Virus record (IMG/VR): IMGVR_UViG_3300025941_000657
Span: 1-36,725 of that record
Source of the DNA: a virus
Direction: 5' to 3' (one strand)
DNA: 36,725 nucleotides
The notes beneath the pieces are model-generated. The model was not told the origin of the DNA and searched no databases. It saw only the letters and a program-made list of their open reading frames with translations. This document shows positions 12,548 through 36,725 of the stretch, one piece after another (within the stretch, counting starts at the first letter, position 1; every line of letters starts with the position of its first letter). The translations under genes were made by a program, and so were the position numbers.

Positions 12548-15500
12548 TTGGAATATGGTTGGGCCGGCAGCGGCAGCTATTTAACCGCGCCCGTCACCGC
12601 TCTATCGACCGAATTGACCGGCCTCGCATCGTCCTCAAGCGATGTGCTGGCGGTCTCGGCGCCGTTCGCCAATTCGCAAGGTGCGGTATGGGCAGACATT
12701 GAATTTATCGCCGGGGGGGCATGCTCTCCCGGCCTTGATGCGTTTCTTGAGGTCTGGGTGCTCCGCTCACTCGATGGCGGTCTGACCTTCGAGGATGGTG
12801 CCGCAGCGACCGCTCCCGCACGCGGTCCGGATGCGACAATCGAAATCAACACCGGAACGAGCATCACGCCGCACGCCGGTTTCCCGGGGGTTATGCTGCC
12901 GCCTGGCACGTTCAAGATCGCGCTGCGCAATCAAATGGGCGTCGCCATTCCGGCGGGCTCATCCGTGCGCTTTGCCGTCTATTCGGAGGGCTCTGGGGCG
13001 GATAGCGCAGTGCTTGCGGGCGATGCCACAGGAACCACCGCGCTGCGCATTGCCGATATGATGGAGCGCTTCGGTGTTGTCACGTATTCGCAGTCGGTTG
13101 CCGGGACCAACCCGTGGGGCGCTGGGGTCAGCAATTACACCACAGATTCGGTGATCCAGGCGCTCACCTGGCTGACCGCAAACTCCGGCATGCGCTGCAA
13201 TCTGCGGGAATACCACGTGGCAGGTCGCGATACCGGCGCTGGGGCAAACCAGCTGTCTTGGTGTCCCACCGTGGCCGCCTCGACGGGCAGCAAGTTCAGT
13301 GTCTCGTTGCTGCGTGGCGCGGTCAGCGCCGATGCGACCTCGCTCGCAGCGATGGCGGTATCGTCGGCCGGCGGGACGGGCTGGATGACGTGGGCTGAAG
13401 GACTGAACACACCCAACGATGGCAGCATCACCGCGGCCAACTGCGTCACGGTGCAGCAGACACTGTATAACGCCGTCGCTGCTACCCGCACTATGGCAAA
13501 CCCGGTCACGACCGTCGGCCCATCCTTCACCTACAACACACTGCCCCCAGAGACCTCGACGGCAATCGCCAACTATCTCACCACACAGCAAAAGGCCGAC
13601 CTGTTGGCCTCGTCGTCACTGGCATCCGTTCGGTTCTTCCCCACGCTCAATCCGGAGGCGGACGACAGTTCAAGCCGCGGCGGAAACGCTGATGACGTAG
13701 CACTGGGCCACGGGGTTTACTTCGGCAAGCCGCTGATCATGGGCGAGTGGCATCCCACATCGGGCAACACCGACAGCCCGAGCCACGCGATCGACGACAG
13801 CTTTGGTGCGTTCTACGCCGCGCTCGGCATGCTGAACTTTCATCGCCTGGGCTATGAGGCGTGGTTCTGGAAGAGCCTGTTCGATATCGGCCAGAGCGGT
13901 GACTCACCGTTTACCCGTGTCGGGCTATTTCCCAATAGCGGCTCTGGCACGCCACGACTGCCCGCGCGCACGATCCGCGCGATGTATGCGTTGACGGGTG
14001 ACAGCGGCTCGAAGAAACGCACGTTCCGGCCATCGAAGCTGGATTACACCATCACCGGCTTACAGGCGCCCGGGTCCAACGCGACACCATGGAGCGGCGG
14101 GCATCATCGTCTGTATCAGAATTCCGGCGGAACATTCTTTTTGTTCCTCTGGAACGAGCAACGACCGATCCTTGGCACCGGCGCCACCATCACGGTCAGC
14201 TTCATCCGCACCATGGCGCAGGTTGTGCACTATGATCTAACGACTGATCCGCTGACAGCGGAGACAGCCGTCGCGACGCTGACCAATATCGCCACTCTGT
14301 CCTTCTCACTGACCGCGTCGGTGCATCTGCTCGTTATATCCCCGCAGGGATCTATTATTCCAACTGAGAGCGCACAGGGCACGACGCTGAACACAGCGTC
14401 CGGCGCTATCCATGACGCGGCCGGTATCGCCTATTCATTGGTCGCCAATCCGCCGAACGGCTTCCAGGTCAACCACGGCGGCGTCACCGACAGTTCCAAT
14501 GTAGTGCTACTGCTGTATTGGGACCATCAGGTTTGGCAGCAGACCTCAACTAACAGCTGGTTCTATTGGTCTGGTTCATCTTGGGTGGCAGGCACCGACC
14601 CGCGCATCGTGGCGAGCGAGAGCCCCGAGGGCATGACCATCAACGGCCCGGGCAATACGATCTTTGCGTCGCAGACGCCGGGCTCCGTAGCTGGCGCGAC
14701 GTTGGATGAATGGACAATCAATTCCAGTGCACAGATAGTGCTGAATGGCGTTGCCAACGGCAGCACCGCGAACGTCATGCAGGCCTACTACCACAACCAC
14801 ACGGTGTTCATCCAACAGAGTTCCGGCAACGCGTTTGGCAGCCCAGGCTGGTGGTCATGGAACGGTGCAGCATTTGTCGCGGTGGCAAATCCGTTGGGCA
14901 CCGTGGAGTCACCCGAAGGCACGCAACTTTCCAGCATTGGCCCGACGATAAATGCCTCGGCCACCCCCGGAACGGCATCGAACACGGTGCATGTGTGGGC
15001 CCTCGTCCAGGCCACGCAGCTTGATAATCCGGCTTTCCAGATATCGTTCGACGGAACCCTAGATACGGCAAGCTGGGGCGTCGATCTACTCTACTACCAC
15101 AACCATCAGATTTACCAGCGCACCGTCGGTTCCAACTCGCTCGGCAGCCCGGCGTGGTATGTGTGGGTTGGCCCGGGGATGAATGATTGGAACGATACCT
15201 CCAATCCCATTCCTGCGGCGCCAACCGAGACGACCAGCGGCGCCTATGTCACCACTGCTGGCACAATCGTCTATGCGTCCCAGACACCAGGCCAAGCCGG
15301 CGGCGTCATTCTTGACGAATGGGCGATAACCTCGAGCCGCGCGTTGAATCGCAACGGCTCGCCGGACGGTTCGTCCAGCAACGTCGTCGCTATCTACTAT
15401 GCCTCGCACTTCCTCTACCGCCAGCAATCTACTGCCAACTCGCTCGGTGATAATCCGGGTTGGTGGCGATGGAACGGCACCGGCTGGATCGACGTGCATG

Positions 15501-25535: not shown

Positions 25536-25559
25536 CCGTTTTATCCCCAGGGGTGAAGT

Positions 25560-25742
25560 TCATTCTGATCGTTGCGGAATACCCCACCTTAGCAAAGCGG
25601 GATCCTGCTCAGCCCCGCCACAGGTTGGGCAGCTATAATAGCAGTTCAATTCCCTCTGCTCGGCTGGGCTCATATCAATGCCAGATATCTGCTGGTATAG
25701 CGTTCCACATTCTCTGCACCTGCCAGGCATTCGGTAGGCCAT
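25560..25742 (-). CDS. small zinc-ribbon-like protein
   Basis: The ATG at 25742 is chosen because GGAGCGG lies seven bases upstream and because the previous gene stops at 25762; longer in-frame ATGs would overlap that gene. The 60-aa product has two Cys pairs, CREC near residue 8 and CPTC near residue 38, typical of a zinc ribbon. A conserved-looking ISGIDMSPAEQRELN lies between them. Zinc ribbons bind nucleic acid or protein partners; the partner is not evident. Confidence 0.65.
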   Translation of the reverse strand: MAYRMPGRCRECGTLYQQISGIDMSPAEQRELNCYYSCPTCGGAEQDPALLRWGIPQRSE

Positions 25743-25761
25743 TTTCCGCTCCGGAGTTAAG

Positions 25762-26016
25762 TTAATCCAATAGACCGGCCCGACGAAGCGCCGATATTCG
25801 CTGCTGAAGTGCCTCAAGCTCACTGGCTTGATAATGCCAATTAAGTTGGCGCTCATCACCCGCCACGGGTTTGTCTGGGTCCATTCCGAACTCGGCGCAA
25901 AGCTCCCGAGCGATAGGTTCGAGATGCTGGAACTTTGGTAACTGCTCTGACCATATGCGCCAGTAGTCGTCTTCCGCAGGACGACTCGATTCTGACTTTT
26001 CCTTCCACGGCCACAT
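25762..26016 (-). CDS. small hypothetical protein
   Basis: This 84-aa protein begins MWPWKEKSES and has a repeat copy with GAGGAA about twelve bases upstream. The middle (LEPIARELCAEFGMDPDKPVAGD) and the helical C-terminus (QASELEALQQRISALRRAGLLD) look like a small helical bundle. No family is recognised. It is separated from the zinc-ribbon gene by one repeat copy. Confidence 0.7.
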   Translation of the reverse strand: MWPWKEKSESSRPAEDDYWRIWSEQLPKFQHLEPIARELCAEFGMDPDKPVAGDERQLNWHYQASELEALQQRISALRRAGLLD

Positions 26017-26055
26017 CTGTGTGTGCGTTCCTCAATCGGGGTCTAGTATCAGGTC

Positions 26056-26833: not shown

Positions 26834-26919
26834 TGGTGGACAGGGCTGGATTCGAACCAGCGTGCCTCGTAGGGACCAGATTTACAGTCTGGCGGTTTCA
26901 GCCTCTCACCCACCTGTCC
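26834..26919 (-). tRNA. tRNA-Tyr (anticodon GTA), CCA encoded
   Basis: The minus strand folds as a class II tRNA: acceptor GGACAGG/CCTGTCC, anticodon stem CCAGA/TCTGG around CTGTAAA (GTA at 26883-26885), a long variable arm with a CCT/AGG stem, and T arm GCTGG-TTCGAAT-CCAGC. Discriminator A and CCA are encoded. It lies eight bases after an upstream gene's stop, so it is probably cut from the operon transcript. Confidence 0.93.
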
Positions 26920-26926
26920 TAACTCT

Positions 26927-27307
26927 CTATAGTGAAGCATCTTCAGGAGTCTGCCACCGACGTATTCCCGCAGCCGTCCCACGATTTGACGCAATCATGT
27001 ATCGGCCAATCGCAGCGCACACAATGTCGGCCATTCGCTGTTCGCCAATAACTAGCGTATCTGGGATCTTCGATAGTTTGTGCGGCAGAAAGGTCAGTCT
27101 GGCCAACACTTTGTCTTTTTGTCCAAAGGAGAGATTGCCTCCACTATGGCTCGCAACTCTGATTACTCCCTCACGTCCTGGGAATTGGTAGTAAACAGAC
27201 TCACTTTGCATTGAGACGTAGGCAACCTCAAAGCCTGCCATCTTCAGAAGACTTGCTGCCTCATCGCAGGCTTGCAGTGTCGTCAGGATGCGCCTTGGCT
27301 CTCTCAT
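26927..27307 (-). CDS. hypothetical protein of the minus operon
   Basis: This 126-aa soluble protein begins MREPRRILTTLQACDEAASL. An alpha/beta core follows (LKMAGFEVAYVSMQSESVYY, then VIRVASHSGGNLSFGQKDKV), and later LVIGEQRMADIVCAAIGRYM. Its ATG overlaps the stop of the preceding 48-aa frame (ATGA). It resembles no family I can name; the overall size and mix would suit a small regulatory or nuclease-inhibitor type protein, but that is not supported. Confidence 0.65.
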   Translation of the reverse strand: MREPRRILTTLQACDEAASLLKMAGFEVAYVSMQSESVYYQFPGREGVIRVASHSGGNLSFGQKDKVLARLTFLPHKLSKIPDTLVIGEQRMADIVCAAIGRYMIASNRGTAAGIRRWQTPEDASL

Positions 27308-27450
27308 TTAACCGGGGTGAGGTTTACTTCTATGCCCCATGGCCACATGCGTAACCCGATACTCTTGTTCCGCGCTCTTGCGAGCGTCGGGAGCGGCGCA
27401 TGCCACATTTCGCCGGTGTGGTTCCTAAGAACGACCATGAGGTTCGTCAT
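27304..27450 (-). CDS. 48-aa first frame of the minus operon
   Basis: This is the first frame after the minus-strand promoter at 27484-27512. It encodes 48 residues, MTNLMVVLRNHTGEMWH to IEVNLTPVK, and its stop overlaps the next start by four bases. A ribosome site is weak; AGGAAA lies about 20 bases before the ATG and a second ATG follows four codons later. It could be a leader peptide that couples translation into the next gene. Confidence 0.45.
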   Translation of the reverse strand: MTNLMVVLRNHTGEMWHAPLPTLARARNKSIGLRMWPWGIEVNLTPVK

Positions 27451-27468
27451 AATCCGGTGTCTGGTTTG

Positions 27469-27485
27469 TTTCCTGTTGACAGAAA
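27469..27485. promoter_or_regulatory. near-palindrome overlapping the plus promoter -35, possible operator
   Basis: TTTCcTGT-tg-ACAGAAA is a 7-bp inverted repeat with one bulged base. It covers the plus-strand -35 (27476-27481) and touches the minus-strand -10 (27484-27489). A bound regulator could act on both promoters at once. Confidence 0.45.
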
Positions 27486-27505
27486 CCTAGCCAATAAACT
27501 ACATT
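27476..27505 (+). promoter_or_regulatory. sigma70-type promoter for the recombinase and tagged-gene operon
   Basis: TTGACA (27476-27481), 18-base spacer, TACATT (27500-27505). It reads into the recombinase gene at 27541. Confidence 0.6.
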
Positions 27506-27512
27506 GCGTCAA
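27484..27512 (-). promoter_or_regulatory. sigma70-type promoter for the minus operon
   Basis: In minus sense TTGACG (27512-27507), 17-base spacer, TAGGTT (27489-27484). It reads into the 48-aa frame and the small-gene/tRNA operon and overlaps the plus promoter almost completely. Confidence 0.6.
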
Positions 27513-27540
27513 GAGGAAAGTTTAGGAGTCTGTAAATCAG

Positions 27541-28173
27541 GTGCCACGGAAGCCGAAAGCCAAGGATCAGCCGCCTCCCCGGCCGACCGAGGAGCCGCAC
27601 AAAATGGGTTATGCCCGCGTCTCCACGTCCGACCAGGATTTGCGGATGCAGCGGGACGCCCTGATTGCTGCCGGCGTCGATCCACGGGACATCTGGGAGG
27701 AGAAGGTCAGTGGCACCAGCTTGTCCAAGCGCAAGCAGTTCCACTTCATGATGAAGGACGTTCGCGAGGGCGATATCGTCTATGTGTGGAAGCTGGACCG
27801 GCTCGCACGCAATGCCGTGGACCTCTACCAGACGGCTAAGCTGATTGAGGACAGGGGCGCTACGCTGGTCGTCCTGACCATGCCTGGCATGGACACCGGA
27901 ACGCCCGTAGGCCGCGCCATGTTCGGCATGCTGGCCGTGTTCGCAGAGTTTGAGCGTGCCATTGCCCATGAGCGCACGATGGCCGGTCTGAGGGCGGCGC
28001 GGGAGCGGGGATGGAAGGGGCGTCAATCCAAGTTCAGCGATGACGAAGTGCTGGCTACCCAGCATCTCCCGAAGGCTGTGGCCGCGCGCCAAATAGGGAT
28101 CACGCCGGCGGGATACGGTAAGCGGTTAGCGAAAGCTTTAGAGAACCGTGCGAAAGGGAAATCTGATGAGTGA
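27541..28173 (+). CDS. serine recombinase (resolvase/invertase family)
   Basis: This 210-aa protein has the catalytic Ser28 in GYARVSTSDQD, the WKLDRLARN arginine motif (about 95-103), the E-helix region FAEFERAIAHERTMAGLRAA, and a C-terminal helix-turn-helix (about 175-200, LPKAVAARQIGITPAGYGKR). Length fits small resolvases and invertases. It uses GTG with AGGAG twelve bases upstream; the extra 20 Lys/Pro-rich N-terminal residues are unusual, and an ATG at 27604 would give a standard start. It could resolve multimers of a circular element or invert a segment; no paired recombination sites are visible here. It is first in the tagged-gene operon. Confidence 0.88.
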   Translation: MPRKPKAKDQPPPRPTEEPHKMGYARVSTSDQDLRMQRDALIAAGVDPRDIWEEKVSGTSLSKRKQFHFMMKDVREGDIVYVWKLDRLARNAVDLYQTAKLIEDRGATLVVLTMPGMDTGTPVGRAMFGMLAVFAEFERAIAHERTMAGLRAARERGWKGRQSKFSDDEVLATQHLPKAVAARQIGITPAGYGKRLAKALENRAKGKSDE

Positions 28174-28363
28174 GAAAGATACGACACTCTCATGCCCCCA
28201 CTGCGGTGGATGGCTGATTAGCCGCGCGGCTAGTGCTTACAGGGACGCTCATTGGCGCGCGTCCGTCCTGCGGGAAGCCCCCAAGGAGGTCTGGGAGGCT
28301 TACCGAGCTGACGGCATCGGCTTGATGGATGCCCTCTCGATGGAGCTGTCCTATGCCGGATGA
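28166..28363 (+). CDS. tagged small protein with CxxC motif
   Basis: The ATG at 28166 is chosen: GGGAA lies just upstream, and this start gives the tag MSEKDTT. It overlaps the recombinase stop by eight bases (28166-28173). The 65-aa product has a CPHCGG pair near residue 10 and a helical remainder (SAYRDAHWRASVLREAPKEV). A single Cys pair may be half of a zinc site completed in a dimer. The function is unknown. Confidence 0.65.
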   Translation: MSEKDTTLSCPHCGGWLISRAASAYRDAHWRASVLREAPKEVWEAYRADGIGLMDALSMELSYAG

Positions 28364-28514
28364 AGATCACCCAGACCGATCCCAGACGACCCAACACTGG
28401 ACCAGCCGTTATTACGCAACGGTTCTGTCTCTAGTGCTGTCCTGGGGCTTCGTGTGGGGCATTGTCATTGGGGCACATCTCGAAAAGATTACGGAATTTC
28501 TGAATGACCGATAA
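28353..28514 (+). CDS. tagged single-pass membrane protein
   Basis: The ATG at 28353 follows GGAG by eight bases and gives the long tag MPDEDHPDRSQTT. The 53-aa protein then has one hydrophobic segment (about 21-42, YYATVLSLVLSWGFVWGIVI) and a polar tail ending EFLNDR. The tag would lie on one side of the membrane. It contains the first copy of an exact 28-bp direct repeat. Confidence 0.65.
   Translation: MPDEDHPDRSQTTQHWTSRYYATVLSLVLSWGFVWGIVIGAHLEKITEFLNDR
28364..28391 (+). repeat. 28-bp exact direct repeat, copy 1
   Basis: Identical to 28735-28762; both encode the DHPDRSQTT part of the tag in the same reading frame, 371 bases apart. Perfect identity in otherwise unrelated genes suggests recent copying of the tag. 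Confidence 0.9.
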
Positions 28515-28698
28515 ATCAACCACAGCTTCAGTTGAGCTTGGTCGCGTGGCATTTAGAGAGTTCATGGAAGGTAATCCCAATCCCTTTCCGCTGGGGTCAT
28601 TGGATAGGATGTGGTGGTGGTCGGCTTTCATTCGTGAAGCAGAGCGCGTGCGCGATGATGCGATTAATCAGTGGTCTATTAAAGAGGCAATGAAATGA
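28504..28698 (+). CDS. tagged small protein
   Basis: This 64-aa protein starts MTDKSTTASVEL. Its first eleven bases (ATGACCGATAA) contain the stop codon of the preceding gene. The rest is helical (VAFREFMEGN, then WWWSAFIREAERVRDDAINQ) and has no known domain. The stop overlaps a possible 11-codon frame (28695-28730) leading into the next gene. Confidence 0.65.
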   Translation: MTDKSTTASVELGRVAFREFMEGNPNPFPLGSLDRMWWWSAFIREAERVRDDAINQWSIKEAMK

Positions 28699-28726
28699 GT
28701 TCGGCTGAACAGAGAGGGGGTGGACG

Positions 28727-29029
28727 ATGAGTGCAGATCACCCAGACCGATCCCAGACGACCACCGAGGAGCATGACCAGGACGCCAAGGTGCATGAGGA
28801 TTTGGGGCGGGCCAGCGTGACGCGGAGAAAGATCCGACCACGATCCGATACGACACTCATCAACCACGTGGCCGCTGCGCTTGCTAGGGAAGCTGGATGG
28901 GTAACGCCGTTGATGGAGATGGAAGCGGAATTTGTGCTCGGATATCAACGGCGAGCCCAAGCCGCGATTATCGCCATGAAGGACTGGGAACGCGAGCAAC
29001 GGTTGTTTGGAGATCACCCCCATGACTGA
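28727..29029 (+). CDS. tagged small protein
   Basis: This 100-aa protein starts MSADHPDRSQTT after a strong GAGGGGGTGG. It contains the second copy of the 28-bp repeat. The body is charged and helical (ASVTRRKIRPRSD, then HVAAALAREAGWVTPLMEME and RRAQAAIIAMKDWEREQRL). An 11-codon frame upstream (28695-28730, MSSAEQRGGGR) overlaps its start and may couple translation. No family is recognised. Confidence 0.68.
   Translation: MSADHPDRSQTTTEEHDQDAKVHEDLGRASVTRRKIRPRSDTTLINHVAAALAREAGWVTPLMEMEAEFVLGYQRRAQAAIIAMKDWEREQRLFGDHPHD
28735..28762 (+). repeat. 28-bp exact direct repeat, copy 2
   Basis: Identical to 28364-28391, in the same frame relative to the tag (DHPDRSQTT). Confidence 0.9.
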
Positions 29030-29231
29030 CAACACGACGATTCCGGAATTCCTTCGTCCCATAGCCCATGACGATGGCACCCTGGAGGGAACGCTGCCGG
29101 GAGATCGGGGCGGCTATGTCATCCTGCCGTGTGATAGCGGTCTGGTGCTGCTCGACGGAGTATGGACACCCTCGCAGCTCCGCGCGATTGCTGACTACGC
29201 AGAGAGCATTGGAGTTCATAATGCCCGATAA
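29022..29231 (+). CDS. tagged small protein
   Basis: The ATG at 29022 has TTTGGAG nine bases upstream and gives MTDNTTIPEFLRP; its first eight bases (ATGACTGA) contain the previous stop. The 69-aa product has LEGTLPGDRGGYVILPCDSG and ends in a helix (PSQLRAIADYAESIGVHNAR). It appears to be a compact alpha/beta protein with no recognised family. Confidence 0.65.
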   Translation: MTDNTTIPEFLRPIAHDDGTLEGTLPGDRGGYVILPCDSGLVLLDGVWTPSQLRAIADYAESIGVHNAR

Positions 29232-29454
29232 CTCATCGACCATAAGAGAGGCCGGGGAATGGCATGCCCGTCACGAGCCTATTAGCGCTCTACTTCCAGA
29301 CGACGGACAGCCCAGAGTGTTTGTGGAGAGCGACGACTTCGCGCACGATGTCAGGCTATATGTAAGTGGTGACTTTAAAGACGATGAACAGCGATTAGCA
29401 TACGCGAACGAAATTGCTCGGCGCCTGAACGCCTGGGAGTCTCAGAATGGCTGA
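29221..29454 (+). CDS. tagged small protein
   Basis: The ATG at 29221 has GGAG six bases upstream and gives MPDNSSTIREAGEWHAR; the first eleven bases (ATGCCCGATAA) contain the previous stop. The 77-aa protein has acidic loops (ALLPDDGQPRVFVESDDF) and the helical end AYANEIARRLNAWESQ. The function is unknown. Confidence 0.65.
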   Translation: MPDNSSTIREAGEWHARHEPISALLPDDGQPRVFVESDDFAHDVRLYVSGDFKDDEQRLAYANEIARRLNAWESQNG

Positions 29455-29686
29455 AAACCCCACCACCCACAAGGTCCGAGAGAATGACCCTATCTACCGC
29501 ATTCGCCAACGCGAATCGACGGTCCAGATCGGATGGGTGCAAGGCAGGTTTCGGCATATCGATGAATGGATGACACGACTTGGGCTACATTCCAGGTCTC
29601 CACAGTTTCTATCCGAGCCCATCAGCGACGAGTCCCGCCGCAAAATAGACAATAGGCTCGCTAGCGTTCCGAGAATCAAACTATGA
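29447..29686 (+). CDS. tagged small protein
   Basis: This 79-aa protein starts MAENPTTHKVREND after GGGAG, and its first eight bases (ATGGCTGA) contain the previous stop. The body is basic (YRIRQRESTVQIGWVQGRFR) and ends SRRKIDNRLASVPRIKL. It could bind nucleic acid by charge, but no motif shows it. Confidence 0.65.
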   Translation: MAENPTTHKVRENDPIYRIRQRESTVQIGWVQGRFRHIDEWMTRLGLHSRSPQFLSEPISDESRRKIDNRLASVPRIKL

Positions 29687-29886
29687 ACGATCAGCCGACG
29701 CAAAACCCAATGACCCAGAAGCCTGAATGCATCCACATCGAGCAGTGGGCGCTGGACGACAAGGGAAACATGGCCTGGGAGTTTCACGTCTGGGGAGCCG
29801 ACGACAAGGACCCGCTTGTCTGTGGAACAAGGCCAACACTAGTCCAAGCTATTGAAGCAACGTTGCAGTTCGTGAGATCACTATGA
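29683..29886 (+). CDS. tagged small protein
   Basis: This 67-aa protein starts MNDQPTQNPMTQKPE, a more diverged form of the tag, with ATGA overlap to the previous gene. The middle (CIHIEQWALDDKGNMAWEFH) and the end (RPTLVQAIEATLQFVRSL) suggest a small beta-beta-alpha fold. A clear ribosome site is missing, so it probably depends on coupling. Confidence 0.62.
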   Translation: MNDQPTQNPMTQKPECIHIEQWALDDKGNMAWEFHVWGADDKDPLVCGTRPTLVQAIEATLQFVRSL

Positions 29887-30230
29887 ACAACAGACCTGAT
29901 CGATCCGAGACGACCCGCGAAGATCTCATTGGCACGGGCATTATCCAGTGCTGTCCTGAATGTGGCCAGCCACTAGAGGGGGTGGCCATCAACATTCACG
30001 GTTCACTTCCCTACATTCGCCACATCAATGTGTCTGGGAATATCAGGGGGGCGATTCGCAGATCGGCGGGAAACAGCGAGAAGTTGGCGGTCGAGCTGAC
30101 CAACATGATCGTCGGCCAGGAATTCCCTGTCGAGGAGATCGGCGACATCCTCGAATGTATCAGCATTTATCAGCCGACACCGATCCCTACCGAGGTCGTA
30201 GAGGCAATAAGGGTCCGTTTGAATGTCTGA
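29883..30230 (+). CDS. tagged small protein with CPxC-type pair
   Basis: This 115-aa protein starts MNNRPDRSETTRED, the long tag form, with ATGA overlap. It has CCPECGQPLEG near residue 23, as in half zinc ribbons. A hydrophilic alpha/beta body follows (KLAVELTNMIVGQEFPVEEI, then PTPIPTEVVEAIRVRLNV). The family is not recognised. Confidence 0.65.
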   Translation: MNNRPDRSETTREDLIGTGIIQCCPECGQPLEGVAINIHGSLPYIRHINVSGNIRGAIRRSAGNSEKLAVELTNMIVGQEFPVEEIGDILECISIYQPTPIPTEVVEAIRVRLNV

Positions 30231-30405
30231 CAAGCGAAACTCATCGACCGGACACATGGATGAGCGGGAGAACCATATTCGCCGGCTCGCTATGATCATG
30301 ACCAAAGCGGCAATACCGTCTCATGACTGCGAGGAATATCTGCGAAACCGGGAATACGGGCTAGCCCTGGCCGCTCTGGCAGAGGATGTAATTCATGGCC
30401 GATAA
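30223..30405 (+). CDS. tagged small protein
   Basis: This 60-aa protein starts MSDKRNSSTGHMDERE; ATGTCTGA contains the previous stop. The rest is a helical domain (HIRRLAMIMTKAAIPSHDCE, then YGLALAALAEDVIHGR). The function is unknown. Confidence 0.62.
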   Translation: MSDKRNSSTGHMDERENHIRRLAMIMTKAAIPSHDCEEYLRNREYGLALAALAEDVIHGR

Positions 30406-30592
30406 TTCCCAGACCACCGCTAACTGGCCGGTTTGCGAGAGTTGCGAACACCCCGGAGTTTGCCGCCAAGAGGATGAGTGCCTGATCGACCATCATTCCC
30501 TCTATCGGATGGAACTACATCGCCAGCGTGAGATAGCCATGAAGGTCATTGAGCGCGATGCCCCATTGTTCAGGAGACTTGCAAAACGATGA
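30395..30592 (+). CDS. tagged Cys-rich small protein
   Basis: This 65-aa protein starts MADNSQTTANWPV; ATGGCCGATAA contains the previous stop. Cys residues occur as CESCEHPGVCRQEDEC (four Cys in 16 residues, about 14-29), which could hold one zinc or a disulphide pair. The C-terminal half is a basic helix (HRQREIAMKVIERDAPLFRR). Confidence 0.65.
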   Translation: MADNSQTTANWPVCESCEHPGVCRQEDECLIDHHSLYRMELHRQREIAMKVIERDAPLFRRLAKR

Positions 30593-30783
30593 GCCTAAAC
30601 CCCACCACCGTCGAGCCAACCCTGGTCGAGCGCGTTGCGCGCGCACTATGGGAGACGGATTGCGCGCGCTGGGGCGACGCCGCGTGCGGGGATATGCCGC
30701 AGTGGGATACCGACGGGACGGCTTACATCGCTATGGCTGAGGAAGCCATTGCAGTCGTTAGACAATGGGACGCGGGGAAATGA
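30589..30783 (+). CDS. tagged small protein
   Basis: This 64-aa protein starts MSLNPTTVEPTLVERVARAL with an ATGA overlap. The middle (TDCARWGDAACGDMPQWDTD) and the helical end (GTAYIAMAEEAIAVVRQWDA) recall small phage proteins that start with a VERVARAL-type helix and end in a similar helix. The function is unknown. Confidence 0.65.
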   Translation: MSLNPTTVEPTLVERVARALWETDCARWGDAACGDMPQWDTDGTAYIAMAEEAIAVVRQWDAGK

Positions 30784-30941
30784 GCGATCAGAACTCAACC
30801 ACCCATCCCAGCCTTCTGTTCGAGGAAGCGTGTTTGCTGGATCGAGATATCGACGCCTGGCATGAACAGGTCGACAAGGAGGAGCCACTGGCGGCCTACC
30901 TCGTGCGCATTGGCTGGCGAAAGGCAAACCAGAATGGCTAA
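30780..30941 (+). CDS. tagged small protein
   Basis: This 53-aa protein starts MSDQNSTTHPSLLFEEA with an ATGA overlap and ends RIGWRKANQNG. It is acidic in the middle (LLDRDIDAWHEQVDKEEPL) and helical. Its stop lies inside the start tag of the next gene, which supports both. Confidence 0.62.
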   Translation: MSDQNSTTHPSLLFEEACLLDRDIDAWHEQVDKEEPLAAYLVRIGWRKANQNG

Positions 30942-31173
30942 CTCCGATACCACGGCCGATGATCTGACACACGACAAGGCGGTCGCCGGCGTATTGTTAG
31001 ACTCCTTGATCCACATCCTGCCCTATGGGCTCCCTGCTGCTACGCTGCTGGACGTGCTTGTTCAGCAGCACGTCTCCAAAGGGATTGCAGCGTCTCTGAT
31101 CAGGGAGGGATTGGGCAACGGCTCGCTGGTGCTGACCGACAGCATGAACATTGCAGGAGAGCATTCGTGGTAG
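30934..31173 (+). CDS. tagged small protein
   Basis: The ATG at 30934 gives MANSDTTADDLTHDK; ATGGCTAA contains the previous stop. The 79-aa protein has a winged-helix-like helical pattern (LPYGLPAATLLDVLVQQHVS, then KGIAASLIREGLGNGSLVLT). This may be a small DNA-binding fold, but no family match can be claimed. Confidence 0.65.
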   Translation: MANSDTTADDLTHDKAVAGVLLDSLIHILPYGLPAATLLDVLVQQHVSKGIAASLIREGLGNGSLVLTDSMNIAGEHSW

Positions 31174-31358
31174 ATCAGCCCAATCAATCCGAGACGACCG
31201 AACCAAACGCCGTTGCCTTGTGGCGGAGTATGGGACGGCTCGCCCGCATCACAGGCGAACCATGCGAACCGCCGTCAGTCCTGTCCCACCTGAATGACGC
31301 CTGGACCGACGGCTGGAGGCAGGAAGATGCGAAACGGGAAAATCAGCATGACCGATAA
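31167..31358 (+). CDS. tagged small protein
   Basis: This 63-aa protein uses GTG after AGGAG and starts MVDQPNQSETTEPNA; the previous TAG lies inside GTGGTAG. It is helical (VALWRSMGRLARITGEPCEP) and ends in a charged, Gln-rich tail (WRQEDAKRENQHDR). The function is unknown. Confidence 0.62.
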   Translation: MVDQPNQSETTEPNAVALWRSMGRLARITGEPCEPPSVLSHLNDAWTDGWRQEDAKRENQHDR

Positions 31359-31557
31359 ACCCGCCGCCATCCCGGAACTGTCCCAAGTTCGGTTGCTGCG
31401 CCAAGTGGGACCTATTGCCGAAGGGAACGTCGGAACCGTTGTTCACGTCTATCCTCGTGGCGATGCCTACGAAGTAGAGTTCCGCACCGGACCAGAAGAT
31501 TACGACTGGCACCTTGAGACATGTCCGCCGGATGCCGTGGAGGCTTTGAATGTCTGA
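31348..31557 (+). CDS. tagged DUF4926-like small protein
   Basis: The ATG at 31348 gives MTDKPAAIPELSQVR; ATGACCGATAA contains the previous stop. The 69-aa body (VRLLRQVGPIAEGNVGTVVH, then YEVEFRTGPEDYDWHLET) resembles the DUF4926 family, small beta-barrel proteins with a GxVGTVV turn and YEVEF strand. These are usually of unknown function and some neighbour toxin-antitoxin genes. Confidence 0.65.
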   Translation: MTDKPAAIPELSQVRLLRQVGPIAEGNVGTVVHVYPRGDAYEVEFRTGPEDYDWHLETCPPDAVEALNV

Positions 31558-31669
31558 CGAGCGAAACTCCACCACCACCGGGATGGTGGTGTGGCGAGAG
31601 ATAAAATTGTCCGCAAGGCAATTCTTTGCCCCCGTCATCTGGGTATGGAAGATCTGCCATGGCAGATAA
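31550..31669 (+). CDS. tagged 39-aa protein
   Basis: This short frame starts MSDERNSTTTGMVVWRE; ATGTCTGA contains the previous stop, and its own stop lies in the next gene's ATGGCAGATAA. The rest (KLSARQFFAPVIWVWKICHG) is weakly hydrophobic. An inverted repeat around CCACCACC/GGTGGTG lies early in the coding part. Confidence 0.55.
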   Translation: MSDERNSTTTGMVVWREIKLSARQFFAPVIWVWKICHGR

Positions 31670-31910
31670 CCCAACCACCAGCGAGGACATTATAGAGCGC
31701 CTGCTCTACGTCGCGGAATGGGGCAGCACTGATCCGTGCAAGTTGTGCATCGATGCGGCGAACGAAATCGAACGGCTGCGCGCGACGCTACGCGAAATCC
31801 GCCGCGACATCGAGGAGTCCGCCGATGACGTTGTGTGGATGCGTGGCGGCATTGAGACCGTCTGCGATAGGATCACCGCAGCGCTTGGAGATCAGCATGT
31901 CCCCGAATGA
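31659..31910 (+). CDS. tagged small helical protein
   Basis: The ATG at 31659 gives MADNPTTSEDIIERLLYVAE. The 83-aa protein contains DPCKLCIDAANEIERLRATL, a motif common in short phage proteins in which a coiled coil begins with AANEIERLR. It probably oligomerises through that helix. The function is unknown. Confidence 0.68.
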   Translation: MADNPTTSEDIIERLLYVAEWGSTDPCKLCIDAANEIERLRATLREIRRDIEESADDVVWMRGGIETVCDRITAALGDQHVPE

Positions 31911-32079
31911 TACGACCCGGGACATGGACGCCTTCGACGAAGGGTATGACGCATTCGCGGATAACCACTTAGACTACGACGCATGTCCTTACCCTATCGG
32001 GACAGCCAAACGTAAAGAGTGGCTAAGGGGATGGGACTGCGCTTTGGACGATGCGGCGACTAGCACGTGGGAAGATTAA
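31897..32079 (+). CDS. tagged RMF-like protein
   Basis: The ATG at 31897 gives MSPNDTTRDMDAFDEGYDAF and overlaps the previous gene by 14 bases. The 60-aa body matches the ribosome modulation factor pattern: A-x-x-x-G-Y-x-A, then A-C-P-Y-P, and K-E-W-L-R-G-W-D-x-A (residues about 12-50). RMF dimerises 70S ribosomes in stationary phase. A phage version could bind host ribosomes, or the fold may be reused. Confidence 0.72.
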   Translation: MSPNDTTRDMDAFDEGYDAFADNHLDYDACPYPIGTAKRKEWLRGWDCALDDAATSTWED

Positions 32080-32080
32080 C

Positions 32081-32275
32081 ATGACTGATTCCCAGACCGC
32101 CGCAGTCTCAACGACAGACGACGACGGTGGATCTATCGAGCCTAGACCGGCAAGGTGGCTCACTGCGCCTGAAGTTCATTCCTTGGTTTGGTTCTCGATA
32201 GGGGCCGCGATGTCCTCTGTGGTGTGGATAGGCGTGGGCGCGCGTATCGCGATGGATCACCTATGTGGCCGCTGA
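32081..32275 (+). CDS. tagged single-pass membrane protein
   Basis: The ATG at 32081 gives MTDSQTAAVSTTDDDG, one base after the previous stop. The 64-aa protein has a hydrophobic segment (about 35-57, SLVWFSIGAAMSSVVWIGVG) and a short polar end. Topology alone is visible. Confidence 0.62.
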   Translation: MTDSQTAAVSTTDDDGGSIEPRPARWLTAPEVHSLVWFSIGAAMSSVVWIGVGARIAMDHLCGR

Positions 32276-32294
32276 CAGAGCATGGGGAATCCGC

Positions 32295-32339
32295 ATGACT
32301 GATTCCCAGACCACCACTTGCGAGTGTCCTGCGGGATGA
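32295..32339 (+). pseudogene. orphan tag, 14 codons
   Basis: This frame encodes only MTDSQTTTCECPAG before TGA. Its first 18 bases are identical to the start of the preceding gene. It is either a tag copied without cargo, or the remains of a gene cut at the junction with the opposing secretion operon. Confidence 0.5.
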
Positions 32340-32345
32340 GGTCCA

Positions 32346-32702
32346 TTACCTACGCACAATACAGGCCGGGGCGTCCGCCACGCCCGCGTTATGGCCGATA
32401 TAATATCCCGCCACCCCAGCTGGCACGGCAACCGCCACGCCGCCTACGACGCACCCAGCAGCACAGGCGATGATTATGTAGCGCCAGCGCTCGCCGCTGA
32501 CGGAAGAGCGGATTGCCTGACGCAGCATTTCCGGCTTCCACGGATTAGCCAGGGCCGCCGCCGCCATAAGCGCGGTCAGCCTCTCCACCAGGATATGGAC
32601 CGGATCGCCCGGCCGCAGCCCGCATTTGTGGCTGGCATCGTGGATTTCGGCAACGAGCGCCGTGATGTCGGCGCTGTTCAGGTTCTCAGCGCGACTGGCC
32701 AC
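32346..32702 (-). CDS. membrane protein at end of T4SS operon
   Basis: This 118-aa protein uses GTG and overlaps the preceding 58-aa gene by 17 bases. It has a soluble helical part (residues 1-70) and a hydrophobic Gly/Ala-rich segment (about 74-103, IIIACAAGCVVGGVAVAVPA) near the C-terminus. It is probably an inner-membrane accessory of the conjugation system or an unrelated small membrane protein. The C-terminus is convergent with the tagged operon. Confidence 0.6.
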   Translation of the reverse strand: MASRAENLNSADITALVAEIHDASHKCGLRPGDPVHILVERLTALMAAAALANPWKPEMLRQAIRSSVSGERWRYIIIACAAGCVVGGVAVAVPAGVAGYYIGHNAGVADAPACIVRR

Positions 32703-32862
32703 GCTGCACTACCAGCGGAAGCTGCTGCTGCGGTGATCGGGTCGGCTCCTGTTGGCGGATCAGCGCCTGCGTCGGCTGAGCTAGCTGCATAGCCAAGTGG
32801 CCTTTATGCAGCAAATTCGCAATCCACTGCTCAGTTCGGCGGTCCTGCTCTTCAGACGGCAT
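32686..32862 (-). CDS. 58-aa hydrophilic protein between virD4-like and membrane protein genes
   Basis: The ATG at 32862 overlaps the VirD4-like stop by eleven bases (ATGCCGTCTGA), and its stop lies inside the next gene. The product is Gln-rich (TEQWIANLLHKGHLAMQLAQ, then SPQQQLPLVVQRGQSR) and helical. Placement in a tightly packed operon supports it as real. The function is unknown. Confidence 0.55.
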   Translation of the reverse strand: MPSEEQDRRTEQWIANLLHKGHLAMQLAQPTQALIRQQEPTRSPQQQLPLVVQRGQSR

Positions 32863-34717
32863 CGATATCCTCCATTTCTCGGTAGAACCGCGACGGCATT
32901 ACGCGGTCGATCAGTTCGGCGCGCTCCCAAGGCCTGACACGGTAGAGTTCCTTCAGCGGCTTCTCCAGGCCCAGGATCAGCTGCTGCCTGGGGTGTAGGT
33001 CGGCCAGCAGTTGATACGGGTCGATCAGGTTCTTGCTGATCTCGTGGGTGCCGACATTCTCGCCGCGCGAGATGCGTCCGCCGAAGCCGGTCCCGGCGGC
33101 AACGGAGCGGTTGAAACTGTCGTTCCGCGCCATCACGCCATGTCGGCCGCTGCTGTCGGAAATCTCCCGCGCCACGAGATGGTCGCGGATCTCGGTGTAG
33201 GACCGCCACGTGGCGCACTCAAACCAGGAGCGGCGTCCAGTGACGTCCCAAACTTCCTCCATGTCGGCCACGCTCAGCCAGTTCATGTGCATTGAGACGC
33301 GATAGCCGCGGCCATATTGCCGCAGATGGTCCAACGCCGTCATCCGGCCGAACAGCTTTGATTCGTCGATCTCGAAATGCACCCGCCCCTGCGGGACGTC
33401 ACCGTCGGCGACGATCATGGCGTTGAGGAAACAGGCCATCAGCACCTTGACCACGGGAGGCATGGTGGTCACCGCGTCGAGCGGCACTTGGATAAATACC
33501 GCCAGCTTCTTGCTGACAATGTCGGTCGAGCGAATGGTATCGCCCGAGACCAGGGCGGCAAACGCCGGAATGGTCAGCCACGAGGTTTTCTGCGCCGCTT
33601 CCTTGAAAATCCCCGGCCACATTTCCTTTGCCTGCTCGGTGCCGACGATTTCCCCCGCCAAGTCGCGTGCCATGTGTGAGCGGGAACTAGCCTTGATCCC
33701 ATGTAGCGCAACGATGACTGCGTCGGGCCCCTGGGAAAGGATCCGGCGAACGGTGGCCAGAGTCTTCGGTGGCGGCAGGACCACCGCGCCGGTTTGCTCA
33801 TTGACCTCGGGTATGGACCACAGCACGTGGGCCAGCAGGCAGGCGACGAGGTCTCGCCCGGATAAATGGAAGAAGTCCCCGGTGTTGGTTTTGATTTGCT
33901 TTTCCGATGGATCAAACATCCAATTGACCGCAGTGTGGACGTGCATCTCGGCAAGCGGATGCTTTGGGTCGATCCAATCGACCACGTTGACCGATCCCGA
34001 ACATGACGCCCAGGGATAGATCCGGCCCGTGCTGTCGCTTGGCCTAGGGTTGGGATTGAGCATGACAACACGGTAGCCCTCCCTTTCTTTGGCCTCGTAA
34101 AGCATCGGGCCAAGCTCGGCCTTGGGGTCGGTGACGACCATTGGCCCGAGCCAGTAGGCACATCGGGCGGCGGCCATCGAGGTCTTGCCACCGCCAGAGG
34201 TGGCGAATTCTAGCGACAGCCCATTGCGCAGTTCGCAAGTATCGAACAGCAGCTCGCCTTTGGCGGTCTGGCCAACCAGCTTGCCGCCATAGCTATATTT
34301 CGGGCCGTTGAAGATTTGCTTGGCCCGGTCGACTGTCATCCATTCGGCATGGCCGTGGTTGTCTGTCATGGCCCGCTCTGAGGCAATCGGGGGCCTAGCG
34401 AAAGAGCGGCGGATCCGTCGCATCGGGATACGCCTGATCCTAAAGTGGATAAGACACACGATAGCGATGATTGACGCCGGCGGTGCAAATACTGAGGCGA
34501 GAACCAAACCCCGCACCGGAACCGGCGCGCCGAACACGCGAATAACATGCTCCGGATAATCCCGATAATAGTCCAACAGCATGGTCGCATACCAATTATC
34601 TTCGCCGCCGCTGCCGGTTAGCAATACGAAAATATATGTCGCAGAGGCATACCATACGACTAACACGACGCAGACAATCAGCAGAGACATCCAAACCGTG
34701 CGGTCAATTCTACGCAT
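32852..34717 (-). CDS. virD4: VirD4/TraG-type coupling protein
   Basis: This 621-aa hexameric ATPase family protein would bring substrate (DNA-relaxase complex or effector) to the T4SS channel. It has two N-terminal membrane segments (about 8-33 and 71-92), then the cytoplasmic ATPase. Walker A reads ATSGGGKTS (172-180) and TDPKAEL (196-202) matches the VirD4 DPKGE motif. The Walker B region reads VHFEIDESKLFGR (447-459) instead of the usual LLDEF; the acidic pair is kept as D451-E452. It starts one base after the AT-hook-like gene. Phage terminases are not similar, so it belongs to conjugation or secretion. Confidence 0.88.
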   Translation of the reverse strand: MRRIDRTVWMSLLIVCVVLVVWYASATYIFVLLTGSGGEDNWYATMLLDYYRDYPEHVIRVFGAPVPVRGLVLASVFAPPASIIAIVCLIHFRIRRIPMRRIRRSFARPPIASERAMTDNHGHAEWMTVDRAKQIFNGPKYSYGGKLVGQTAKGELLFDTCELRNGLSLEFATSGGGKTSMAAARCAYWLGPMVVTDPKAELGPMLYEAKEREGYRVVMLNPNPRPSDSTGRIYPWASCSGSVNVVDWIDPKHPLAEMHVHTAVNWMFDPSEKQIKTNTGDFFHLSGRDLVACLLAHVLWSIPEVNEQTGAVVLPPPKTLATVRRILSQGPDAVIVALHGIKASSRSHMARDLAGEIVGTEQAKEMWPGIFKEAAQKTSWLTIPAFAALVSGDTIRSTDIVSKKLAVFIQVPLDAVTTMPPVVKVLMACFLNAMIVADGDVPQGRVHFEIDESKLFGRMTALDHLRQYGRGYRVSMHMNWLSVADMEEVWDVTGRRSWFECATWRSYTEIRDHLVAREISDSSGRHGVMARNDSFNRSVAAGTGFGGRISRGENVGTHEISKNLIDPYQLLADLHPRQQLILGLEKPLKELYRVRPWERAELIDRVMPSRFYREMEDIDAV

Positions 34718-34954
34718 TTAGTCCGTGTCCGTGGCAGATGGTGCTGAGCGCCGCTTGCGTGGCTTCTTGTCTTTGGCTCCCGGAGGTCGGCCGAGCTTCC
34801 TTCGCTGGCTGATCGGGGACAACTCACTCACGGCTGTCAAAATATCGTGCCGCACCGCAATCGCTGCACGCATCAGCGCGACGAAACTCTCCGGCGACAG
34901 GTTCAACGAGCCGCGGTGTTCTTGGATCAACCGAAAGAGCTTCTCGTCATCCAT
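34718..34954 (-). CDS. small AT-hook-like DNA-binding protein in T4SS operon
   Basis: The ATG at 34954 follows GAGG by seven bases and gives MDDEKLFRLIQEHRG. A longer GTG frame would overlap VirB11 and lacks a ribosome site. The 78-aa protein has a helical N-terminal part (FVALMRAAIAVRHDILTAVS) and the basic end LGRPPGAKDKKPRKRR, an AT-hook-like GRPPG motif. It may help the coupling protein or relaxosome to hold DNA. No direct homologue is known to me. Confidence 0.65.
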   Translation of the reverse strand: MDDEKLFRLIQEHRGSLNLSPESFVALMRAAIAVRHDILTAVSELSPISQRRKLGRPPGAKDKKPRKRRSAPSATDTD

Positions 34955-34962
34955 AGTTGGCC

Positions 34963-35958
34963 TCAAGCGAGGTCTGCATCCTTGAACCATACTTCGTCCA
35001 CGTGTCGCTCTCCGCCCTCATCCAGCGTGAGATGTATCACCACGTCGATGAAAGCCTTCAGCTGCTCAGTGACATCCTCCGGCCGCACGCCTCTACCTTC
35101 TGGAGTTTGGCTTATCAGCACACGCAGGCGATGAAATACTCCCGCGCAATCGCTGGCATGGATCGTAGTGATTGCCCCTGTGTGGCCAGTCTGAAGTGCG
35201 ATCATGAGGGCATTGGCAGTATTTCCATCGCGGATCTCTTGTATGAAGAGACGGCCGATACGCATTCTGAGAGCCGCATCGACGAGCTGTGTGGCCGTGA
35301 TGTCTCCCTCCCTTGGATCCTTTTTACAGAACAGCGCGACCGAGTTCTGGTGCGGCAGATCTAGCAATTCCTGCGCGTCCTCAATGACGATCAGCCGGTC
35401 CTCTAGAGGGATCTCGCCAATGAGGGCTTTGCTGAGCGTGGTCTTCCCGGACGCAGTCTGACCACATGCTATGATTGTGCGGCGGCGCCTTACCGCGAGC
35501 GCGAGGAACTCGTCGAAGCGCTCGTCGCGGTATAGCTGCAATAGGTCCTCATCTCGATTGATCTGTCGCTTGGCGACGGCTCTTTTGAAGAGGCCCTTGG
35601 AGGCCAACTCCTTCATGGTCGGCCAGTCGCTGCTGCCGCGACGGATGACGAGGCATGGCCGACCCTGAGGAACACACGGATAGAATACGGCCTGCAGTCG
35701 CCTGGCTGCCTCCCCCGCGCTGTTCATGGCAATCGACAATAATGGTCTGTCGTGATGGATGTTCTGCCGCAGCTGTGCCGCCGCAACAATGGCAATGTCC
35801 TCGATGTCGTCCGCGTCGAGCCGCACATCGTGTCGCTTGTATGCACCACGCTCGAACGTCCATATGTTGTCGGGGGCGTTGACTAATACATCTTCGACAG
35901 AGGGGTTTCCCAGCCAATGACCGAGCGGGTCGAGGAGGTGGTCTAGGGTTACGCTCAT
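34963..35958 (-). CDS. virB11: VirB11-type secretion ATPase
   Basis: The ATG at 35958 has AGGAG six bases upstream and overlaps the VirB10 stop (TAATG); longer upstream starts lie inside virB10. The 331-aa hexameric ATPase shows Walker A GQTASGKT (166-173), an Asp box IEDAQEL (192-198), a Walker B region RMRIGRLFIQEIR (231-243), and a His box GHTGAITTIHA (258-268). Family members usually have GE in place of QE in the Walker B region and T in IEDTQEL. It powers pilus assembly and substrate transfer at the inner membrane. Confidence 0.9.
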   Translation of the reverse strand: MSVTLDHLLDPLGHWLGNPSVEDVLVNAPDNIWTFERGAYKRHDVRLDADDIEDIAIVAAAQLRQNIHHDRPLLSIAMNSAGEAARRLQAVFYPCVPQGRPCLVIRRGSSDWPTMKELASKGLFKRAVAKRQINRDEDLLQLYRDERFDEFLALAVRRRRTIIACGQTASGKTTLSKALIGEIPLEDRLIVIEDAQELLDLPHQNSVALFCKKDPREGDITATQLVDAALRMRIGRLFIQEIRDGNTANALMIALQTGHTGAITTIHASDCAGVFHRLRVLISQTPEGRGVRPEDVTEQLKAFIDVVIHLTLDEGGERHVDEVWFKDADLA

Positions 35959-36725
35959 TACTGGCTCCTGTATTTCTGGACCAAGGTGTAGGCTCCCCTC
36001 ATGTCCAAATCGCGGACTACGAAGATCGAACACGGAAGTCCTTCGTCCCGCGTCATGACATCCGGTATCTGAATATACGAGCGAAGCAGCTCGTCAGCGG
36101 CACCCTGGCCTCCTTGTTGGAAGCTGTTGAAATTCAGATTGGTCTGACTGTTTCCGTTACCCTGCTGACGGCCAAGATATTGTGTCGCCATGTCGATGCC
36201 ACCGCGGAACAGCGATAAGCCGAAAATGCCGCCCAGCTTTCCGGGAAATGGATTGAACAGATGCCTGTTCACATCGCCATCAACTCCCGTTTCGCCACGC
36301 TCGCTGGCAGCAGGAGAATTGACCGCGACACGAAACTGATGCGGCATCCCACGCGCATCATAGAGCACCGGTGTTGTGATATCCTGCCAAAGCACCGCAG
36401 CGCGATCTAAACCGTTTAGCAGCCCGTGCTGGATTGTGCCGAACACTTTGGCGCCCTTCGGCAGCAAGACGACGTCGCCGGTCTCGCCGCGTATCTCTTC
36501 GGGTATGATGGCGGTGACCGCCCCCGGAAGCGTGGTATTTATGCGCGTCTGCTGGATACAGCGCAGAATGCGACCTTCCTCGATGAGCCATCTAGGGTTG
36601 GGCAGTTCAGCTACGCGCGTGCCGTTCATTTTGGTCGGCTGTAGCGATGCCTCTAGGGCATCAGGGCGTCCACTGGGCGGTATTGCGTCTTGGTCACCCT
36701 CGCCGCCCGGCTTTCCTGCGGCCGC
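35958..36725 (-). CDS. virB10: VirB10-type T4SS scaffold protein (5' partial)
   Basis: The frame is open to the right edge, so the N-terminal cytosolic and membrane segments and part of the Pro-rich linker are outside; about 255 codons remain. The visible C-terminal domain has GAVTAIIPEEIRGETGDVVL, LLPKGAKVFGTIQHGLLNG and AAVLWQDITTPVL. The end, PCSIFVVRDLDMRGAY, matches the family's I-x-V-F-V-x-R-D-L-D. VirB10 spans inner and outer membranes and gates the channel. A Gln/Asn-rich insert (about residues 190-205 from the edge, YLGRQQGNGNSQTNLNFN) lies where the antenna loop is expected. Confidence 0.88.
   Translation of the reverse strand, partial: AAAGKPGGEGDQDAIPPSGRPDALEASLQPTKMNGTRVAELPNPRWLIEEGRILRCIQQTRINTTLPGAVTAIIPEEIRGETGDVVLLPKGAKVFGTIQHGLLNGLDRAAVLWQDITTPVLYDARGMPHQFRVAVNSPAASERGETGVDGDVNRHLFNPFPGKLGGIFGLSLFRGGIDMATQYLGRQQGNGNSQTNLNFNSFQQGGQGAADELLRSYIQIPDVMTRDEGLPCSIFVVRDLDMRGAYTLVQKYRSQ

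Follow-up and report, generated by a model that had tools for sequence, protein, structure and literature searches.

The stretch analysed here, an IMG/VR virus record of 36,725 nucleotides (IMGVR_UViG_3300025941_000657; hereafter the window, to the whole of which all positions refer), carries on its plus strand an array of 21 small open reading frames (ORFs), most of which begin with a variant of one short N-terminal tag, M-[STA]-[DE]-x-[ST]-T-T. We consider it probable, at roughly 80%, that this array lines up exchangeable gene cassettes and that the half of each splice joint that is translated forms the tag. Each cassette would consist of the hexamer ACSACC, a cargo sequence, a stop codon, a Shine-Dalgarno (SD) sequence, an ATG and a tag, ending at the ACSACC of the next gene. 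Recombination at ACSACC would keep the reading frame whichever upstream tag meets whichever downstream cargo; an incoming cargo lacking a start codon would thereby take over ribosome-binding site, start codon and N-terminus, all provided by the preceding cassette.

28166 to 32339, plus strand: array of 21 tagged small ORFs (ORF list and tag statistics), starting at 28166, 28353, 28504, 28727, 29022, 29221, 29447, 29683, 29883, 30223, 30395, 30589, 30780, 30934, 31167, 31348, 31550, 31659, 31897, 32081 and 32295; neighbouring ORFs mostly overlap, by 4-14 nt.

The preliminary description of this DNA had proposed that consecutive, otherwise unrelated small genes share their N-terminus, and this was borne out. 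Thr-Thr occurs within residues 4-13 in 17 of the 21 array genes; in a background of 129 further small genes, taken from the window phage and five relatives, 7 show it (Fisher p=1.6e-13). Start codons were assigned from the sequence, for the background set by means of a simple custom gene finder. Asp, Glu or Asn occupies position 3 in 18/21 versus 29/129, and both features coincide in 14/21 versus 2/129 (p=7e-13). When each array protein was shuffled, on average 1.1 and at most 5 of the 21 had Thr-Thr, and internal windows of the same proteins showed the pattern in 9 of 868 cases. Chance or composition as the source of the shared start is thus ruled out by the shuffles, the internal windows and the background genes. 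The further statement that every gene is tagged holds for most of the 21 and is slightly too strong: genes 29221 and 30223 carry ST in place of TT, the tags of 29683 (MT), 31348 (AA) and 32081 (TA) are degenerate, and the last ORF (32295-32339) encodes only 14 amino acids. Tags range from 6 to 13 residues, with long forms (e.g., MPDEDHPDRSQTT) in genes 28353, 28727, 29883 and 31167, and the protein encoded at 28727-29029 contains a second, internal copy (RPRSDTT, 28850).

At the DNA level, the tag represents the coding half of a repeated joint of about 32 bp, GGAAA-TCA-CATGACYGATAACCC-ACSACC. The perfect 28-bp repeat reported in two copies is real, and two diverged copies accompany it.

28364 to 28391, plus strand: copy 1 of the perfect 28-bp repeat, a long form of the joint (copy 2 at 28735-28762).
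29885 to 29915 and 31169 to 31199, plus strand: diverged copies of the 28-bp repeat (repeat comparison).
32280 to 32315, plus strand: example of the joint, with SD GGGGAA, ATG, tag codons and ACCACC (joint alignment).

As for the long tags (such as DHPDRSQTT), they would seem to have arisen from full copies of the joint whose ATG decayed, an upstream start being used in its place. Across the tag codons, third positions are more variable than first and second ones, a synonymous variation; in the hexamer encoding Thr-Thr, by contrast, position 3 is C or G in 42/42 joints and position 6 is C in 34/42, counts that include some non-independent joints from cassettes common to the window phage and a second phage, G009 (see below). 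Coding and DNA-level constraint are therefore both visible. A profile built from the joint nucleotides does not reach significance alone, owing to its shortness, and the same pattern had been used to choose its control loci. Two stretches (31545-31569 and 30218-30242) agree not only in the start and in the tag MSD[KE]RNS but also in the codons LNV* that end the upstream genes (s9 and s16), which otherwise differ; some copying has thus taken place just upstream of the start as well.

Arrays of the same type were recovered from other phages, all of the compared records being metagenomic and possibly fragments. A scan of IMG/VR with a degenerate SD-plus-tag pattern, as had been suggested for gene starts in related elements, returned 72 loci, two of which (L096 and L070, in records G009 and G010) form a dense tagged array in which several genes are those of the window behind other tags. 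G009 and G010 are identical over 31,373 bp, may share reads and are counted as one phage. A second pattern scan added G011 (77 kb; six or seven tagged genes) and G012 (37 kb; three), bringing the phages with arrays like that of the window to three more. No tagged array was found in the stretches examined of tail-gene relatives or of relatives of one cargo protein, nor in genome-collection scans by tail protein and by tag; among named phages and plasmids no array was related at the DNA level, and the plasmid matches fall in the recombinase gene. The exact DSQTT form gave no match as a query, and the 21-nt DNA of a long tag gave two, inside tail genes on the opposite strand, that were taken as chance.

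The evidence that carries the cassette reading comes from the comparison of the window with G009. The arrays have eight segments in common, seven of them at 91-98% identity and one at 75%, in two phages whose long tail-gene blocks are only 63-68% identical.

28386 to 28524, plus strand: cassette s2 (ACGACC, then stop, SD, ATG and tag MTDKSTT of s3); 97% to G009 30928-31074.
28757 to 28855, plus strand: cassette s4a, without a stop of its own, ending in the internal joint RPRSDTT; 98% to G009 30014-30108.
28850 to 29039, plus strand: cassette s4b, ending in tag MTDNTT of s5; 95% to G009 30537-30725.
29462 to 29715, plus strand: cassette s7, ending in tag MNDQPTQN of s8; 94.5% to G009 31384-31638.
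29910 to 30249, plus strand: cassette s9, ending in tag MSDKRNSST of s10; 98% to G009 32122-32463.
30798 to 30954, plus strand: cassette s13, ending in tag MANSDTT of s14; 91% to G009 28822-28978.
31194 to 31368, plus strand: cassette s15, ending in tag MTDKPAA of s16; 75% to G009 31946-32120.
31912 to 32101, plus strand: cassette s19 (RMF-type cargo), ending in tag MTDSQTA of s20; 93% to G009 31632-31824.

Whether gene order varies at tag boundaries had been put forward as a check, and it does. The order s2, s4a, s4b, s7, s9, s13, s15, s19 of the window reads s13, s4a, s4b, s2, s7, s19, s15, s9 in G009; it is completely scrambled, no pair of common segments being adjacent in both phages. Each segment is bounded by the ACSACC hexamers of two successive genes, all 16 segment ends lie within 7 bp of a joint (0-7 bp), and the summed end-to-joint distance is 35 bp versus a mean of 839 and a minimum of 340 in 100,000 random placements. 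Identity is lost at once to the left of the hexamer (runs of 0, 0, 0, 0, 1, 0 and 2 bases), and the 30 nt to its right are 70-100% identical. The clear pairs have different codons immediately before Thr-Thr, which places the crossover in the hexamer or to its right. In six pairs the tag stays with the upstream cassette, and tag and new cargo are joined with the reading frame kept. The cargo TTREDLIGTGIIQCCPE, for instance, has MNNRPDRSE before it in the window but MPDKP in G009; the RMF-type cargo TTRDMD is preceded by MSPND (window) or MNDQPTQNS (G009); and the tag MNDQPTQN lies behind the same upstream gene in both phages with different cargo joined to it. The ORF at 28727-29029 consists of two cassettes fused via the internal joint at 28850; in G009, s4a is fused to another cargo and s4b is a separate gene. 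That the joint serves to add cargo by recombination, one of several roles that the preliminary description had offered for the tag, is strongly supported by the reordered cargo, by the segment ends at the joint and by cargo homologues that lack the tag. That the joint itself promotes this exchange is something we infer.

It could be argued that the shared start is a translation-start element only, kept for strong coupled initiation, and that the exchange boundaries merely mirror gene ends. An SD sequence at fixed distance is indeed apparent from G at -11 in 15/21 and at -10 in 17/21 array genes; the start regions are less structured than those of other genes (mean -4.25 vs -6.14 kcal/mol, p=0.001); and stops in other frames are enriched within tags (+2 frame, 30/40 vs 65/295), where joint stop codons in another frame often serve the overlapping upstream gene. 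However, the boundaries fall inside genes, past the tag, and not at stop or start codons, and this explanation would require 21 different genes to have converged on a Thr-Thr that their homologues elsewhere do not have. We therefore regard it as distinctly unlikely as a full account: the suggestion of a translation-start enhancer is compatible with the SD spacing and the weak start structure, and leaves the exchange boundaries unexplained. Under the cassette reading, the joint probably persists because its translation-start function is kept.

The cargo itself behaves as expected for translated, useful proteins. In six shared cassettes cargo pN is 0.028 and pS 0.090, consistent with purifying selection, with pN above pS for the RMF-type cargo, one of those six. 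ORF 31897, which encodes this cargo, matches the RMF profile (PF04957) at 29.9 bits against a curated cut-off of 27.9, and a second cargo has a profile match as well.

31348 to 31557, plus strand: DUF4926 cargo (31.6 bits, cut-off 29.1).

For six tags that have the same upstream cassette in both phages, pN is 0.086, roughly threefold the cargo value (p=0.009), although the numbers behind it are small (8 nonsynonymous differences). Because the tag changes faster than the cargo, one common peptide job is not expected. A functional N-terminal peptide that directs these proteins to one place, partner or protease would account for the similar residues kept through synonymous variation. Nevertheless, the tags vary from 6 to 13 residues in length, several copies have lost TT while their genes remain, homologues lack the tag and one copy (28850) sits inside a fused protein. 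With the tag residues outpacing the cargo as well, such a role, whether in localisation, assembly or proteolysis, has found no support, and we deem it very unlikely. Inheritance of the shared N-terminus along with homologous cargo is ruled out: homologues of the s6 cargo (13 IMG/VR loci and phage CASP1) and of the RMF-type cargo (TM16, BUCT548) begin with another N-terminus and have no tag.

The remaining question concerns how the cassettes are moved. A RecT-type phage recombinase would be the likely agent, acting on the repeated joints by annealing or by homologous recombination. The evidence from RecT-family matches, at a distance of about 1-2 kb from the G011 and G012 arrays, is circumstantial: a gene at G011:58536-60059 (82.9 bits, over the cut-off) is found about 1 kb upstream of the tagged array, and the match near the G012 array reaches 22.2 bits, below the cut-off of 24. 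A further RecT-family match occurs in G006. Several points weigh against the cassette reading or this chemistry. RecT was not found in the window, G009 or G010, all of them fragments; the left halves of the joints are on average only 35% identical, which leaves little for annealing; the crossover is sharper than homology alone would give; the fine boundaries all come from one phage pair; and in gene g3 of G009 (29152; L124 around 12735-12930) tag and cargo are out of frame. The g3 cargo may be served by another start in the joint.

The sharpness of the crossover at a 6-bp core is what would be expected of integron-like, site-specific shuffling, in which a dedicated recombinase cuts ACSACC and moves the cassettes. 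In line with this, the common segments lie on the same strand in both arrays, with cassettes head-to-tail in a single orientation, and in the window a recombinase gene lies directly before the first joint.

27541 to 28173, plus strand: serine recombinase (PF00239; E=7.8e-40, over the cut-off), whose 3' end overlaps the first tagged gene.

This enzyme is a possible, unproven partner of the array; as a constant partner it was rejected, not being found in the other, incomplete array contigs. On the other side, the incomplete contigs of G009, G010, G011 and G012 contain no match to PF00239 or PF00589, and the latter (tyrosine integrase) is absent from seven records, all possibly incomplete. The joint alignment shows no conserved arm to the right of the hexamer, and joint folding does not exceed that of shuffles (mean z -0.02), so that no ordinary recombinase site is present. 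An attC-like hairpin was considered for 31659 and 32295, which look palindromic, yet show no excess over shuffles. The protein at the head of the G009 array was also rejected as a recombinase, to which it is only weakly similar (33% identity over 61 residues only; model unusable, mean pLDDT 48.6). Site-specific shuffling of this kind is thus rather unlikely. The fuller form of the idea is a dedicated system, an integron analogue with a coding joint, whose enzyme would cut a 6-bp core inside reading frames; cassettes without a start would then be captured in frame, downstream of a ribosome-binding site, a start codon and an N-terminal leader that are already in place. This is similarly doubtful. 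For the unproven enzyme of the cassette exchange, RecT-type annealing is modestly favoured as first choice, with site-specific recombination second. At the head of the G009 and G012 arrays stand two proteins that are related to each other (L124:11745-12401 and L235:1372-2055; E=1e-11) and faintly resemble the serine recombinase of the window; these are possibly recombinase-derived DNA-binding proteins.

Among known systems, the nin region of lambdoid phages offers a lead as a case of boundary sequences. Boundary (linker) sequences between phage genome modules have been proposed as foci of homologous recombination, a proposal cited in PMC3029335. Like them, the joint is a short conserved sequence at which mosaics switch partner; unlike them, it is one joint repeated for about 20 genes in a row, partly in frame, which leaves an N-terminal tag and permits free scrambling. 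The start-associated sequences (SAS) of cluster K mycobacteriophages are 13-bp repeats before the start codon (PMC3203893), likewise found at many different small non-structural genes and containing an SD; whereas SAS are upstream only, the joint takes in the first 5-12 codons of the gene, and it is at the end of the joint that the exchange boundaries are located. As in integrons, promoterless small genes in one orientation are exchanged as units, in the window with a recombinase gene at their head, but a tyrosine integrase was not found, there is no folded attC, and the coding joint supplies the start codon of the next gene. Unlike in shufflons and other invertase systems, no segments are inverted between oppositely oriented sites. 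Phage Rad52-like recombinases carry out relaxed homologous recombination on short, diverged sequences, generating mosaics of a few hundred bp with flanking homology traces at only about 30% of them (PMC3945230). The RecT-family matches near the arrays fit this pattern, whereas all ends here fall at one repeated joint. SAS are the nearest repeat, boundary sequences the nearest evolutionary idea and integron cassettes the nearest layout; no description of a coding joint that tags a row of phage genes was found in the open-access literature. Illegitimate recombination and boundary-sequence exchange are the usual alternatives in the open debate on how small accessory genes of phages are acquired and rearranged, and a joint repeated about 20 times, with crossovers readable to a few bases, makes the question testable. 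Because the joint brings a start and a ribosome-binding site, it also settles how a captured gene can be expressed. It can further be used to search metagenomic phages for arrays of accessory genes, and it cautions against reading a common function into a common N-terminus.

The regions flanking the array in the window phage, a soil phage, show related and additional features. The left part of the window holds tail genes, among them those for tail tube, tape measure and collar. On the minus strand, a leader repeat like AACTTAACCCCGGTGAGG precedes several small genes between 24900 and 27330, and a tRNA-Tyr (GTA) lies among the small genes of this operon at 26834-26919.

25537 to 26040, minus strand: operon block common with G009 27243-27751 (92%), both ends lying in a different start-leader repeat.

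With the leader repeat at both ends of this exchanged 0.5-kb block, these phages may exchange DNA at start-associated repeats more generally, and the question arises of a second, non-coding start joint in the minus-strand operon. Beyond the array, the minus strand encodes a TraG/VirD4 coupling protein, a VirB11-type ATPase and TrbI/VirB10 (32852-36629) beside phage tail genes. Since TraG and VirB11-type matches also adjoin tail genes in the tail relative G005, the pairing of conjugation and tail genes is probably real and would indicate a phage-plasmid or a phage with conjugation genes.

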